From NCBI RefSeq assembly GCF_036240795.1, contig NZ_CP108454.1, forward strand, positions 5,146,001 to 5,210,000: a DNA stretch of 64,000 nucleotides. The letters are read 5' to 3'. Below are positions 43,182-45,941 of the stretch, piece after piece. The notes beneath the pieces are model-generated. The model saw only the letters and a program-made list of their open reading frames with translations, had not been told where the DNA came from and did no database searches. How positions within the stretch are numbered: position 1 is the stretch's first letter; every line of letters starts with the position of its first letter. The stretch comes from Streptomyces sp. NBC_01268. GTDB taxonomy: Bacteria > Actinomycetota > Actinomycetes > Streptomycetales > Streptomycetaceae. Position numbers and translations under genes: made by a program.

Positions 43182-44345
43182 TCACGTCAGGGGTTCGGTT
43201 GCCCGGTCCAGCCAGGCGACCCGCGAGGTCGGCCGCACGGTCAGGCCGAACCGCTCGAATCCGGGCCGCCCTTGTCCCACCCACCAGTCGTACGCGGCCT
43301 CCGTCTCGTCCCACAGTCGACGGGGCCCGGACTGCACCACCTCGAACTCCGTGGCACCCGGCTCGTGGTCGGTCGATGCCCACGAGGTGCCGTCGGTGCC
43401 GTACGTCCACAGCGTGTACGCGCCGTCGTCGTACCGCTCGACGGTCCAGAACGCCCCCGGCACGCGCAGCCCGATCACGAACTGTTCCAGCCACCCGCCG
43501 ACCTCGGCGGGCGAGAGCGCCGTCACGCTCCTGACGCCGCCCGCCGGCCACTCCTCGCCCTTGAGGTACGTGTCGTGGTCGGGGAGGTCCGGGCGTTGCT
43601 GACGGAGCCGCATGAAGGCGCTGGAGCGGGTGAAGTGTCCATGGGCGGCGCCGTCTTCGCCGACGGTGAGCCGCGCGATGGCCTCGCCGCCGTACTCCGT
43701 TCCCCAGGGGGCGACGATCAGTCCGCCGGGAGCCGTCTGTTCGATCCACGCGGGCGGGATCTCCCCGACGGAGCAGGTGGCGATGACCCGGTCGTAGGGC
43801 GCCCGGACCCCGTACCCCTGTCGTCCGTCCCCGACGATCACGGTGGGCGAGAGCCCGGCCGTTCTCAGGCGCTGGGCCGCCCCTTCGGACACCTCCGGAT
43901 CGAACTCGACCGAGACCACGGCGTCCGACCCGAGCCGGTGGGAGAGCAGCCCCGCGTTCCAGCCCGTACCGGTGCCGATCTCCAGGACCTGGTGCCCGTC
44001 CTCGACGCCGAGGTCGTCGAGCATCGCGAACACCATGCTCGGCTGCGAGCTGGAACTCGACGGGCGGGTGCCGACGGCGTCCCCGGCGTGCCGGCCGTCG
44101 TCCCACTGGGTGGTGAGGGGGATGTCGGAGTACACCGCCGCGAGCCAGCCGTGCGGATCGACGGCCCGGTCCACGAGCGGGTTCTGCCGGGTGCCGTCCG
44201 CGATGCCCGGCCAGATGCGGTCGGGTACGAACAGGTCCCGGGGGACCGCCCTGAACGCGGGCAGCCAGTCGGGTCGCAACGCGCCCGAGGCGAGGAGTAC
44301 GGAGGCGAGCCCCGAGGGGCCCGCCTCCTCCGTGCGCGCGCTCAC
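43182..44345 (-). CDS. Protein-L-(iso)aspartate O-methyltransferase homologue of the RiPP-associated type
   Basis: A 387-residue SAM methyltransferase, longer than housekeeping PIMT (about 220). PIMT-like regions are FRAVPRDLFVPDRIWPG, SSSQPSMVFAMLDDL and SAM motif HQVLEIGTGTGWNAGLLSHR, followed by VVSVEFDPEVSE and APYDRVIATCSVGEIPPAWI. The remaining 150 residues form a C-terminal extension with several Trp. This extended form is typical of methyltransferases linked to graspetide, lanthipeptide and imiditide clusters, which methylate a peptide Asp to give aspartimide. GTG 44345 overlaps the stop of a 47-codon gene as GTGA. No ATP-grasp or lanthionine synthetase gene is nearby. Confidence 0.82.
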   Translation of the reverse strand: MSARTEEAGPSGLASVLLASGALRPDWLPAFRAVPRDLFVPDRIWPGIADGTRQNPLVDRAVDPHGWLAAVYSDIPLTTQWDDGRHAGDAVGTRPSSSSSQPSMVFAMLDDLGVEDGHQVLEIGTGTGWNAGLLSHRLGSDAVVSVEFDPEVSEGAAQRLRTAGLSPTVIVGDGRQGYGVRAPYDRVIATCSVGEIPPAWIEQTAPGGLIVAPWGTEYGGEAIARLTVGEDGAAHGHFTRSSAFMRLRQQRPDLPDHDTYLKGEEWPAGGVRSVTALSPAEVGGWLEQFVIGLRVPGAFWTVERYDDGAYTLWTYGTDGTSWASTDHEPGATEFEVVQSGPRRLWDETEAAYDWWVGQGRPGFERFGLTVRPTSRVAWLDRATEPLT

Positions 44346-44485
44346 TTCTTCGCGGGGCCGGAGCCGTCGGACGAGTTGCCGCCACTCGTCTCGGAGCCCC
44401 CGCCCCCGTGACCGCGTCCGCCGCTGCTGTCGTCCTGCTGGCTGCCGCCCTGACCGCTGCCGGTGCCGCCGTCGTGCTTACCCAT
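44342..44485 (-). CDS. 47-residue Gly/Ser/Asp-rich peptide, candidate methyltransferase substrate (RiPP precursor-like)
   Basis: A small gene with an excellent ribosome site (AAGGAG, 5 nt before ATG 44485) and a 4-bp GTGA overlap with the methyltransferase. The product begins MGKHDGGTG and ends SSDGSGPAKK. It has 18 Gly and 9 Ser, Asp-Gly at residues 5-6 and 40-41, Asp-Asp-Ser at 18-20 and Asn-Ser at 37-38, with no Cys, no aromatic residue and no hydrophobic leader. Asp-Gly is the classical aspartimide-forming pair recognised by PIMT-type enzymes. I infer that this is the substrate; an unstructured accessory tail protein is the alternative. Confidence 0.72.
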   Translation of the reverse strand: MGKHDGGTGSGQGGSQQDDSSGGRGHGGGGSETSGGNSSDGSGPAKK

Positions 44486-44511
44486 GTCACTCCTTGAGTT
44501 GGTCGGTGTCG

Positions 44512-44658
44512 CTATGCCGTTCGGAGCCAGAGCGCCGCGCAGAGCGCGCCCACGGCCACCGCGGTCAGGAAGAGGGCGGCGCGGGCGATGTGCTGATGAC
44601 CCGTACGGCTCCGCGCGGGATCAGGCTCTGGCGTTCCTCGGGGCTGGCCGTCCAGCAC
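44512..44658 (-). CDS. Possible 48-residue single-pass membrane peptide
   Basis: A GTG-started ORF (44656-44658) preceded by GGGAGGTGG about 9 nt upstream, within the 3' end of the 85-codon gene in another frame. The product has a Pro/Arg-rich head (PRGTPEPDPARSRTGHQH) and one strong helix (ARAALFLTAVAVGALCAALW) ending LRTA. The organised head-helix-stop layout and ribosome site favour a real gene, but it could be a chance frame. Confidence 0.35.
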   Translation of the reverse strand: MLDGQPRGTPEPDPARSRTGHQHIARAALFLTAVAVGALCAALWLRTA

Positions 44659-44822
44659 TGGTCCATCGCCACCTCCCACAGGTATCCGCTGGGCCGTACC
44701 AGGGTCAGCAGGTTGCCGTGCACGTCCCGCACCTGGCCGGTGAGGGCCCGCTGCGCGTCGGTCACGACGTCGCCGACGCGGTACCTCATGGGGGCGGGGG
44801 GTGCGTTGGTGTTCGTACGCAT
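44565..44822 (-). CDS. Small conserved-type protein of unknown function
   Basis: An 85-residue protein. After a short leader (MRTNTNAPPAP) comes a compact beta-rich core MRYRVGDVVTDAQRALTGQV, RDVHGNLLTLVRPSGYLWEV, resembling small SH3/KOW-like barrels, then CWTASPEERQSLIP. Such YRVGD-starting proteins occur beside XRE/DUF397 loci in Streptomyces. First gene of the minus-strand set leading to the peptide-methyltransferase pair, and divergent from the XRE gene at 44933. ATG 44822 lacks a strong ribosome site; ATG 44789 (MRYRVG) is an alternative. Confidence 0.6.
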   Translation of the reverse strand: MRTNTNAPPAPMRYRVGDVVTDAQRALTGQVRDVHGNLLTLVRPSGYLWEVAMDQCWTASPEERQSLIPRGAVRVISTSPAPPSS

Positions 44823-44932: not shown

Positions 44933-45754
44933 ATGCCAGGAGCGAAGGATCTGGATCCCGGGGACAGCATCGAGCAGTACCTCGGAAACCTGGTCCGCGA
45001 GGCGCGCTTAGCACTCGGGCGGGAGTGGACGCAGGCGTACGTGGCGACCAAGGCGTTCAGCAGTGGGACCAGGATTTCCGAGATCGAGCGCGGTGAGGAT
45101 CCGCCGGACCGTGACCTGGCGAGGAAGCTGGAGATCGTCCTGCGTCTTCCGCCCGGTTCCCTCGTGAACCTCGTGAAGATCCTCACCGAGCAGAACGTGC
45201 GCGACTACGCGAAGACGTACATGCGACGGCAGCTCGAAGCCACCGCCATTCATGAATTCTCGATCGTGGTGCCGGGCCTGTTGCAGACGGCCGGATATGC
45301 GCGCGCGGCGATGGAGGCGGGTCTCGCGGGCGATTCGGCCCAGATCGGCGACTATGTGCGAAGGCGATTGGAGCGTCAGACGGTACTCGAACGACCCGAA
45401 GCGCCCTGGATGATGATCGTGCTCGACGAAGCCTGTCTGCGCCGTGACATGGGCGGCGCGCAGGTGATGAAGGAGCAGATCGAGCACCTGATCACGATGT
45501 CCGAACGCCCCCATGTGAACATCCAGGTGCTTCCCATTTCGGGAACACCTGTTGCTGGTTCCGTTGCGCTCCTTACGCTTCCCAAGGGTGAGCGAGGGGC
45601 GTACACAGAGGGATTCAGTACGGGTAACTACTCCGAGGATCCAGTCGAGGTGATGAGGTTTCAGCGTGTCTATGATCTGTTGCAACAGGGTGCGTTGGGC
45701 GTCCGGGCGTCCCTGGAACTGATGCGTGCTATCGCGAAGGAACACGATGACTGA
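44933..45754 (+). CDS. XRE-family regulator with DUF5753 (Scr1-type), TTA-containing
   Basis: A 273-residue protein. The HTH is at residues about 14-70 (EQYLGNLVREARLALGREWT, SSGTRISEIERGEDPPDRDL), followed by a DUF5753 ligand/partner domain (IHEFSIVVPGLLQTAGYARA, VMKEQIEHLITMSERPHVNI, VAGSVALLTLPKG). This class pairs with small DUF397 proteins and is reported to act like a toxin-antitoxin or developmental switch. Codon 26 is TTA (45008-45010), so translation should need the bldA tRNA. DUF397 starts inside the last codons (8-bp overlap). ATG 44933 follows GAGG. Likely regulator of the divergent peptide-methyltransferase genes. Confidence 0.87.
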   Translation: MPGAKDLDPGDSIEQYLGNLVREARLALGREWTQAYVATKAFSSGTRISEIERGEDPPDRDLARKLEIVLRLPPGSLVNLVKILTEQNVRDYAKTYMRRQLEATAIHEFSIVVPGLLQTAGYARAAMEAGLAGDSAQIGDYVRRRLERQTVLERPEAPWMMIVLDEACLRRDMGGAQVMKEQIEHLITMSERPHVNIQVLPISGTPVAGSVALLTLPKGERGAYTEGFSTGNYSEDPVEVMRFQRVYDLLQQGALGVRASLELMRAIAKEHDD

Positions 45755-45941
45755 GGCCTCCCCGAACTGGCACAAGAGCACCTACAGCGGCAACGACAAC
45801 GACGCCTGCGTCGAGGTCGCCGACAACGCTCCCCGCGTCGTCCGCGTCCGGGACACCAAGGACCTCGCCACCGGCGAGCTCACGGCCGCGCCGGCCGCCT
45901 GGGCCGCGTTCGTCGCGTACGCGCGGACGCGCGCGGTCTGA
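45747..45941 (+). CDS. DUF397 domain protein
   Basis: A 64-residue protein with the full DUF397 signature: NWHKSTYSGNDNDACVEVAD, VVRVRDTKD and a C-terminal WAAFVAYAR helix. DUF397 proteins are small partners of XRE-DUF5753 regulators. The start overlaps the regulator stop by 8 bp, so the two are translationally coupled. Confidence 0.9.
   Translation: MTEASPNWHKSTYSGNDNDACVEVADNAPRVVRVRDTKDLATGELTAAPAAWAAFVAYARTRAV

Follow-up and report, generated by a model that had tools for sequence, protein, structure and literature searches.

A putative two-gene, glycine-rich type I pamtide (imiditide) system in Streptomyces sp. NBC_01268 with recurrent XRE neighbours

The analysed stretch of 64,000 nucleotides from Streptomyces sp. 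NBC_01268 (contig NZ_CP108454.1, positions 5,146,001 to 5,210,000; hereafter the window) most probably encodes a two-gene type I pamtide (imiditide) system, in which an extended PIMT-type protein-L-aspartate O-methyltransferase (PAMT) would convert one Asp of a linear peptide to aspartimide. This reading is directly supported by the gene pair itself, its conservation, the predicted fold of the enzyme, the absence of a TIGR04187 maturase and the recurrence of XRE regulators as neighbours. We infer the chemistry, the modified site and the role of the regulator as follows: with S-adenosylmethionine, the PAMT would place a methyl ester on one Asp side chain, most likely that of Asp40; the ester and the next backbone amide would then give the aspartimide, and partial hydrolysis of the latter would give isoaspartate. 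The extra C-terminal domain of the PAMT probably holds the peptide at the charged termini, in the way described for SpaM and NmaM, and a divergent XRE-DUF5753/DUF397 pair probably either regulates the operon or responds to the peptide.

The candidate precursor gene (44342..44485, minus strand) has an ATG start and specifies a peptide of 47 amino acids, with a ribosome-binding site AAGGAG (44490..44495, minus strand) 4 nt ahead of the ATG. Its stop codon and the GTG start of the PAMT gene (43182..44345, minus strand; 387 aa) share the overlap GTGA (44342..44345, minus strand), which suggests translational coupling. The initial annotation had described such a gene, 47 codons long, preceded by a strong ribosome site and GTGA-coupled to an extended PIMT-type methyltransferase of 387 residues, and the coordinates confirm this arrangement, with all features on the minus strand. 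The peptide contains 18 Gly (38%), 9 Ser, 4 Asp (8.5%) and 1 Pro (2%), and no Cys; its sequence and composition bear out the Gly/Ser-rich character and the Asp-Gly pairs at residues 5-6 and 40-41 that had been noticed at the outset, and an adjacent Asp18-Asp19 pair is also present.

A search of 5.8 billion proteins returned four peptide homologues (E 8.6e-12, 6.8e-11, 3.4e-5 and 3.3e-3), two of which carry Streptomyces names. A total of 81 PAMT loci were then considered, comprising the window, three places in its own genome and the better-ranked part of the matches listed, with a few entries passed over and one weak partial PAMT match (L041) included. A small peptide of similar make-up was found directly upstream of the enzyme at 72 of these loci, the peptides having been picked with a score biased towards polar composition and retained if they exceeded a composition threshold; five of the remaining nine loci had no convincing peptide and four had none at all. 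With a clean query the ends of the PAMT alignment shift slightly in 11 of the 81 loci, and the peptide and distance counts use the earlier ends. Among 28 named loci, in which the peptide search required a motif, the pairing of peptide and PAMT was seen at 26 and two gave no peptide, so that the small-gene/methyltransferase pairing, for which a genome search had been proposed, does recur. The named relatives belong to Streptomyces, Kitasatospora and Streptacidiphilus, the closest relative is L042 (75-76% identity), and the peptides of the close relatives have in common QDD, HGGGG and a DG end. When the window gene was compared with those of L042, L045 and L039, 16 of 26, 14 of 20 and 13 of 24 nucleotide differences, respectively, fell at the third codon position, and 16, 13 and 11 codon changes were synonymous against 5, 5 and 7 that were non-synonymous. 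Judged by the recurrent pairing and these codons, the peptide gene is real and under purifying selection, and a chance ORF was rejected on the synonymous bias.

The PAMT carries the SAM motif GTGTG at residues 124-128, matches the Pfam PCMT family (E 4e-30), and has WVGQGRP at residues 355-361 (43263..43283, minus strand), which corresponds to the WXXXGXP motif described for the PIMTs of lassimiditides, graspimiditides and imiditides (PMC13001092). The exact motif is found near the C-terminus in 27 of the 35 members of an enzyme alignment that covers 35 of 79 enzymes. An AlphaFold model of the PAMT (pLDDT 92, pTM 0.90) has its best PDB match in the Thermotoga maritima PIMT 1dl5, in which the C-terminal extension is aligned too (381-385 alignment columns, TM-score about 0.52 by query length, 21% identity); the rmsd of about 8 A shows that the two domains are placed differently. 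The examined parts of the pamtide literature contain no RiPP link for 1dl5. The 26 enzymes paired with Gly-rich peptides form one clade (SH-aLRT 98 in a quick tree without bootstrap). Three further PCMT matches below E 1e-20 are present in the host genome (8.5 Mb, one contig), and peptide and enzyme therefore need not be exclusive to each other. A possible role in anti-phage defence was rejected, since the PADLOC match, mad2, spans residues 98-218 only, which is the methyltransferase stretch.

Type I pamtides were described by Lee et al. in 2023 as peptides of about 45 aa, rich in Gly, Pro and Asp and with several conservation patterns, of which SpaA/SpaM was tested (PMC10787088). The window pair shares with them the two-gene unit, a PAMT with a C-terminal domain and WXXXGXP, a precursor of about 45 aa (here 47) and a conserved Asp-Gly; its Gly, Asp and Pro contents of 38%, 8.5% and 2% compare with type I precursor averages of 17.3%, 10.2% and 16.8%, which are averages and not a strict criterion. 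These features, together with the lack of an ATP-grasp maturase at E 1e-20, would place the pair, by its sequence, in a known class, type I pamtides or imiditides, as a new member within a Gly-rich, Pro-poor branch. Its nearest described counterparts are SpaA-SpaM of S. sparsogenes and NmaA-NmaM of Nonomuraea maritima, which likewise are two-gene clusters with a precursor of about 45 aa upstream of the PAMT, a C-terminal PAMT domain, a conserved Asp, WXXXGXP and no primary RiPP enzyme. Both SpaM and NmaM carry out aspartate-to-aspartimide chemistry on linear precursors (PMC10787088, PMC13001092), and the recognition of the peptide through charged residues is treated in the imiditide review by Zhu and Link in 2026 (PMC13001092). 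The window precursor differs from SpaA and NmaA in being Gly/Ser-rich with one Pro. Type II pamtides or cysimiditides (FcaA-FcaM) also consist of a stand-alone PAMT acting on one peptide, whereas the window peptide, having no Cys, lacks their tetracysteine zinc motif (two CXXCXGXG). The Gly/Ser substrate had been called unusual at first, a description tempered by the 1414 type I pamtides in print (PMC13001092).

As to the residue that is modified, Asp40 (codon 44366..44368, minus strand), within a conserved Asn-Ser-Ser-Asp-Gly stretch, is by comparison of the peptides most likely the best candidate for methylation and aspartimide formation, with Asp18-Asp19 (44429..44434, minus strand) as a second candidate site or a recognition element. 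An Asp followed by Gly favours aspartimide formation. In an alignment of 22 peptides, for which 20 Gly-rich loci out of 26, the window among them, were used together with P0003 and P0005, Asp19 was invariant and Asp18 and Asp40 were each conserved in at least 90%. Counted on the alignment, the 26 peptides of named relatives kept Asp40 in 26, the Asp-Asp pair in 25 and Asp5 (44471..44473, minus strand) in none, these figures overstating conservation by the motif filter of the search. Of the two Asp-Gly positions that the initial annotation had put forward for alignment, Asp40-Gly41 is thus conserved in all named relatives, and Asp5-Gly6 is not a conserved site, its counterpart being retained in only one other peptide (L064). 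The conserved Asp18-Asp19 pair, the HGGGG core and the recurrent XRE regulators had not been mentioned there.

An alternative, possible though rather doubtful, is that the modified residue lies in the Asp18-Asp19 pair, ahead of the invariant His26-Gly-Gly core, and that Asp40 serves recognition; the invariance of Asp19, the retention of Asp18 in at least 90% of the 22 peptides and of the pair in 25 of 26 named relatives are in its favour. A natural short precursor from Streptomyces olivoreticuli (L249), MSGQHGGGSDEGGNTSDGSGPSTGK, nevertheless lacks the QDD segment and keeps the SDG end, and the PAMT downstream of it is matched over residues 1-386; this locus passed the motif filter only by an upstream extension of its ORF. 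L057, an atypical member of the 72, likewise retains a DDGGNTNDG end only, and the general preference of aspartimide formation for Asp-Gly also speaks against Asp18-Asp19, as does, weakly, a loose Asp motif matched in the last 28 residues of 67 of the 72 peptides. Pro content was 20.6% in the peptides of the 46 of 72 loci with enzymes less than 55% identical and 3.9% in those of the 26 Gly-rich loci; many of the Pro-richer peptides have Pro-Asp-Gly in the C-terminal half, at which the window peptide has Ser-Asp-Gly. Asp40 is consequently preferred, since it is kept in all named relatives, the short form of L249 is without QDD, and Pro-Asp-Gly is common in the Pro-richer relatives. The Gly-rich branch lends itself to a natural experiment on the Asp and the context that the enzyme requires.

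Divergent from the pair lie an XRE regulator gene with DUF5753 (44933..45754, plus strand) and its DUF397 partner (45726..45941, plus strand; start codon uncertain), and between the XRE gene and the peptide is a small gene of 85 aa (44565..44822, minus strand), which matched no Pfam family and is conserved at the paralogous pair L039 (58.6% identity over 70 residues) and at L045. A hydrophobic segment, LFLTxVAxGA, was observed in another frame over or just past the end of the small gene, the start codon of which is uncertain, in the window (region 44512-44822, minus strand), L039 and L045. Two further pamtide pairs were seen in the host genome: L039 (C1:4692605-4693789), with a Gly-rich peptide, and L040 (C1:4506714-4507805), with a GWGTGKGG...KHGK peptide. 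Between the window and L039, the XRE proteins are 76%, the small genes 58.6%, the enzymes 66% and the peptides 85% identical, and by these values the two look like copies of one cassette. Using the Pfam DUF5753 model as an independent check of the regulator link, 16 matches at E 1e-10 were obtained in the host genome, and a DUF5753 gene was found within about 1.6 kb of all three pamtide-type pairs (window, L039 and L040), which would be far above chance at our own estimate of about 1% per place, with the caveat that the window and L039 look like copies. One genome holds three pairs, each with its own DUF5753 regulator, and the peptides of two of them are 85% identical.

An XRE regulator was present within 2 kb of 45 of the 72 pairs and in 2 of the 40 control regions (p 5e-10 by Fisher's test, with related loci not being independent), the control regions being stretches chosen at round coordinates and not a random draw, and the XRE, DUF397 and DUF6879 profiles having been built from PAMT neighbourhoods, so that their recall in control regions may be lower. 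Restricted to the 64 of 72 pairs with at least 2.5 kb on both sides, the count was 41 of 64. An XRE regulator within 2 kb was also found at 3 of the 9 PAMT loci that lack a convincing peptide and at 17 of the 28 named loci (many of them close relatives, with 3 kb flanks), and in G031, G154 and G064 a DUF5753 gene lay within 2 kb in three of the six pairs compared (L054, L082 and L083, and not L084, L086 and L077). No XRE neighbour within 2 kb was found for 27 of the 72 pairs, including the closest relative L042 and a few with a truncated upstream side. The 2% Pro, the Ser-Asp-Gly, a TIGR04188 score below its cut-off, the rmsd of about 8 A to 1dl5, the three further PCMT matches of the genome and these 27 pairs count against the imiditide reading.

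The regulators at the pairs are XRE-DUF5753 with DUF397, XRE-DUF5753 with DUF6879, or longer XRE proteins. On the enzyme tree, regulator type changes at least 31 times against a shuffled mean of 40 (75 of 79 rows labelled) and is somewhat clustered; from this distribution, regulator type is taken to have been exchanged repeatedly while the XRE neighbourhood persisted, and the link therefore looks functional, by a mechanism that we can only propose. The XRE-DUF397 pairs of Streptomyces (Scr1-Scr2 and others) are of the same kind as the genes at 44933-45941 and have been investigated for their control of antibiotic production (PMC10364602), in a report whose main text contains none of the terms peptide, methyltransferase and isoaspartate. 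According to Carter et al. in 2026 (PMC13097080), genes for DUF397 and DUF5753 may accompany graspetides of groups 11 and 13; an HTH-DUF5753 family is among the neighbours of ATP-grasp loci (PMC8939145). These two graspetide reports were the only ones in the literature searched to bring together DUF5753 and RiPPs, with none for pamtides, and the terms XRE, regulator, DUF, transcription and helix-turn-helix are absent from the main texts of PMC10787088 and PMC13001092. The regulator link to pamtides, which those main texts do not mention, is the feature with the potential to advance the field: linking aspartimidylated RiPPs to a biological function was named the bigger challenge in the 2026 review (PMC13001092), and the strong and repeated association with a single kind of regulator opens such a function to testing.

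It is conceivable, though we consider it unlikely, that the modified peptide acts on the adjacent XRE protein, as its ligand or antagonist, and is not a secreted, antibiotic-like product, a reading that overlaps the imiditide reading and is not exclusive of it. The several kinds of XRE proteins, their type having changed at least 31 times along the tree, and their presence at 45 of the 72 pairs compared with 2 of 40 controls are in line with it, as is the observation that the sole transporter among the clusters found in at least 5 of 41 loci is an ABC ATPase family, seen in 6 loci. Pathway-specific regulation of the operon would explain the linkage equally well, 27 of 72 pairs are without an XRE gene within 2 kb, and the transporter count was taken from raw six-frame ORF clusters, in which families can be missed. 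In a speculative extension, which we judge improbable to a similar degree, pamtide pairs would be the output arms of XRE cassettes, the modified disordered peptide signalling back, inside the cell or exchanged, to the XRE protein or its DUF397/DUF6879 partner, with a tRNA-like leader as a further shared part in some cassettes. If true, this would give aspartimidylated RiPPs a biological function.

The imiditide reading also had to be weighed against a relation to graspetides, as the best NCBIfam match of the PAMT is TIGR04188, the methyltransferase of ATP-grasp peptide maturase systems (E 2e-103, 346.4 bits, near-full length), whose curated cut-off of 380 bits lies above the score of the window enzyme. 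It is very improbable that the PAMT performs secondary tailoring on a graspetide produced elsewhere, with the small peptide incidental. TIGR04188 is also matched by all 35 aligned PAMT relatives, so the model does not separate the graspetide from the stand-alone kind; peptide and enzyme are kept together across species; and the graspetide ATP-grasp model TIGR04187 reached a best E of 6.7e-6 in the whole genome (26.9 bits, cut-off 350), with nothing at 1e-20, on which ground the tailoring role was rejected. The ATP-grasp search covered 31 genomes, including all 20 behind the Gly-rich clade, and comparison of locus places with TIGR04187 match places gave no ATP-grasp gene (E 1e-20) on the same contig less than 10 kb away from any of the 26 Gly-rich-clade loci, some of these contigs being short; a regular ATP-grasp neighbour of homologous methyltransferases, which would have told against the initial annotation, was thus not seen there. 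At one locus (L103 in G073), an ATP-grasp gene directly precedes the PAMT and no upstream peptide was found. No lanthionine or other primary RiPP enzyme (ATP-grasp, Lan or lasso) occurred among the Pfam-scanned neighbouring ORFs, a subset of the window ORFs, and the original statement that ATP-grasp and lanthionine genes are absent holds within these searches. So does the proposal of a methyltransferase-only system of the imiditide kind with a Gly/Ser-rich substrate, given the recurrent pairing and the 26 loci free of a TIGR04187 neighbour. Graspimiditides (group 13 graspetides with a PIMT) have a related enzyme, covered by the TIGR04188 model, and differ from the window pair, which has no ATP-grasp maturase and a linear substrate.

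Least probable of all is a protein-repair PIMT preceded by a chance ORF, for although the catalytic domain is PIMT-like, the C-terminal extension with WXXXGXP, the conserved peptide, its synonymous bias and the gene overlap stand against it, and a canonical repair enzyme was rejected on the structural match over that extension together with the motif.

Upstream of some operons, at L039, L045 and L048, a tRNA-like element was observed, having the acceptor, D- and T-arm of a tRNA and an enlarged middle arm; the distance from the D-arm to the peptide is 151, 151 and 196 nt, respectively. The elements lie at L039:3692-3791 (C1:4692291-4692390 of the host genome, upstream of the paralogous pair), L045:1670-1768 and L048:6780-6879 (minus strand), the latter two also upstream of a pamtide peptide. 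At these three loci Rfam gave no tRNA or other credible match and ARAGORN called no tRNA; in the window the element is absent (best 8.3 bits, elsewhere). A strict pattern occurred four times in 150 genomes, three times before pamtide peptides and once before an ATP-grasp operon, which has a graspetide-like precursor and a second element in tandem. In a test on 10 sequences with hand-chosen ends, 94.3% of the cells in the named helices were paired and five pairs showed changes on both sides, a number reached by 11 of 500 shuffles.

A covariance model (R2) gave 21 matches of at least 55 bits at 20 places in 392 genomes, 10 of the 21 being its own training set; ten weaker matches were listed, several of them resembling ordinary tRNAs. 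Further loci with the element are L161/L205, L169/L198, L170/L197, L194, L227, L229, L231, L235 and L236. By reading of the neighbourhoods, the 20 places comprise five before pamtide pairs, two before ATP-grasp (graspetide-type) operons with a PCMT-type gene, two before radical-SAM operons with a PCMT-type gene, three before other radical-SAM genes, two before copies of a Pfam-less family, and six other or unclear ones; of the 11 non-training places, five precede a pamtide pair or radical-SAM gene and six do not. By Pfam analysis each of the five radical-SAM loci contains Radical_SAM (with E of 1e-14 or better), L205 a MvdD pre-ATP-grasp domain, and L205, L198 and L194 PCMT, their PCMT-type genes sharing no more than 26-34% identity with the window enzyme; with the window PAMT as query, a PAMT was found at four tRNA-like loci (E 1.6e-30 to 2.9e-14). 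Few pamtide loci carry the element: 3 of the 80 searched exceed 90 bits, all three being training sequences. No tRNA-like leader with RiPPs was described in the titles or abstracts of the literature searched, and candidate explanations of the element are a processed leader, a regulator RNA and an integration relic. In two genomes (L232 and L234), a protein of 146-157 aa directly follows the element, that of L232 being without a Pfam match. The element also precedes the radical-SAM and PCMT-type operons of L194 and L170/L197, possibly the operons in which Lee et al. identified no precursor, and at L197 a small ORF containing MAQSKKRVGGRHGG lies between the element and the radical-SAM gene.
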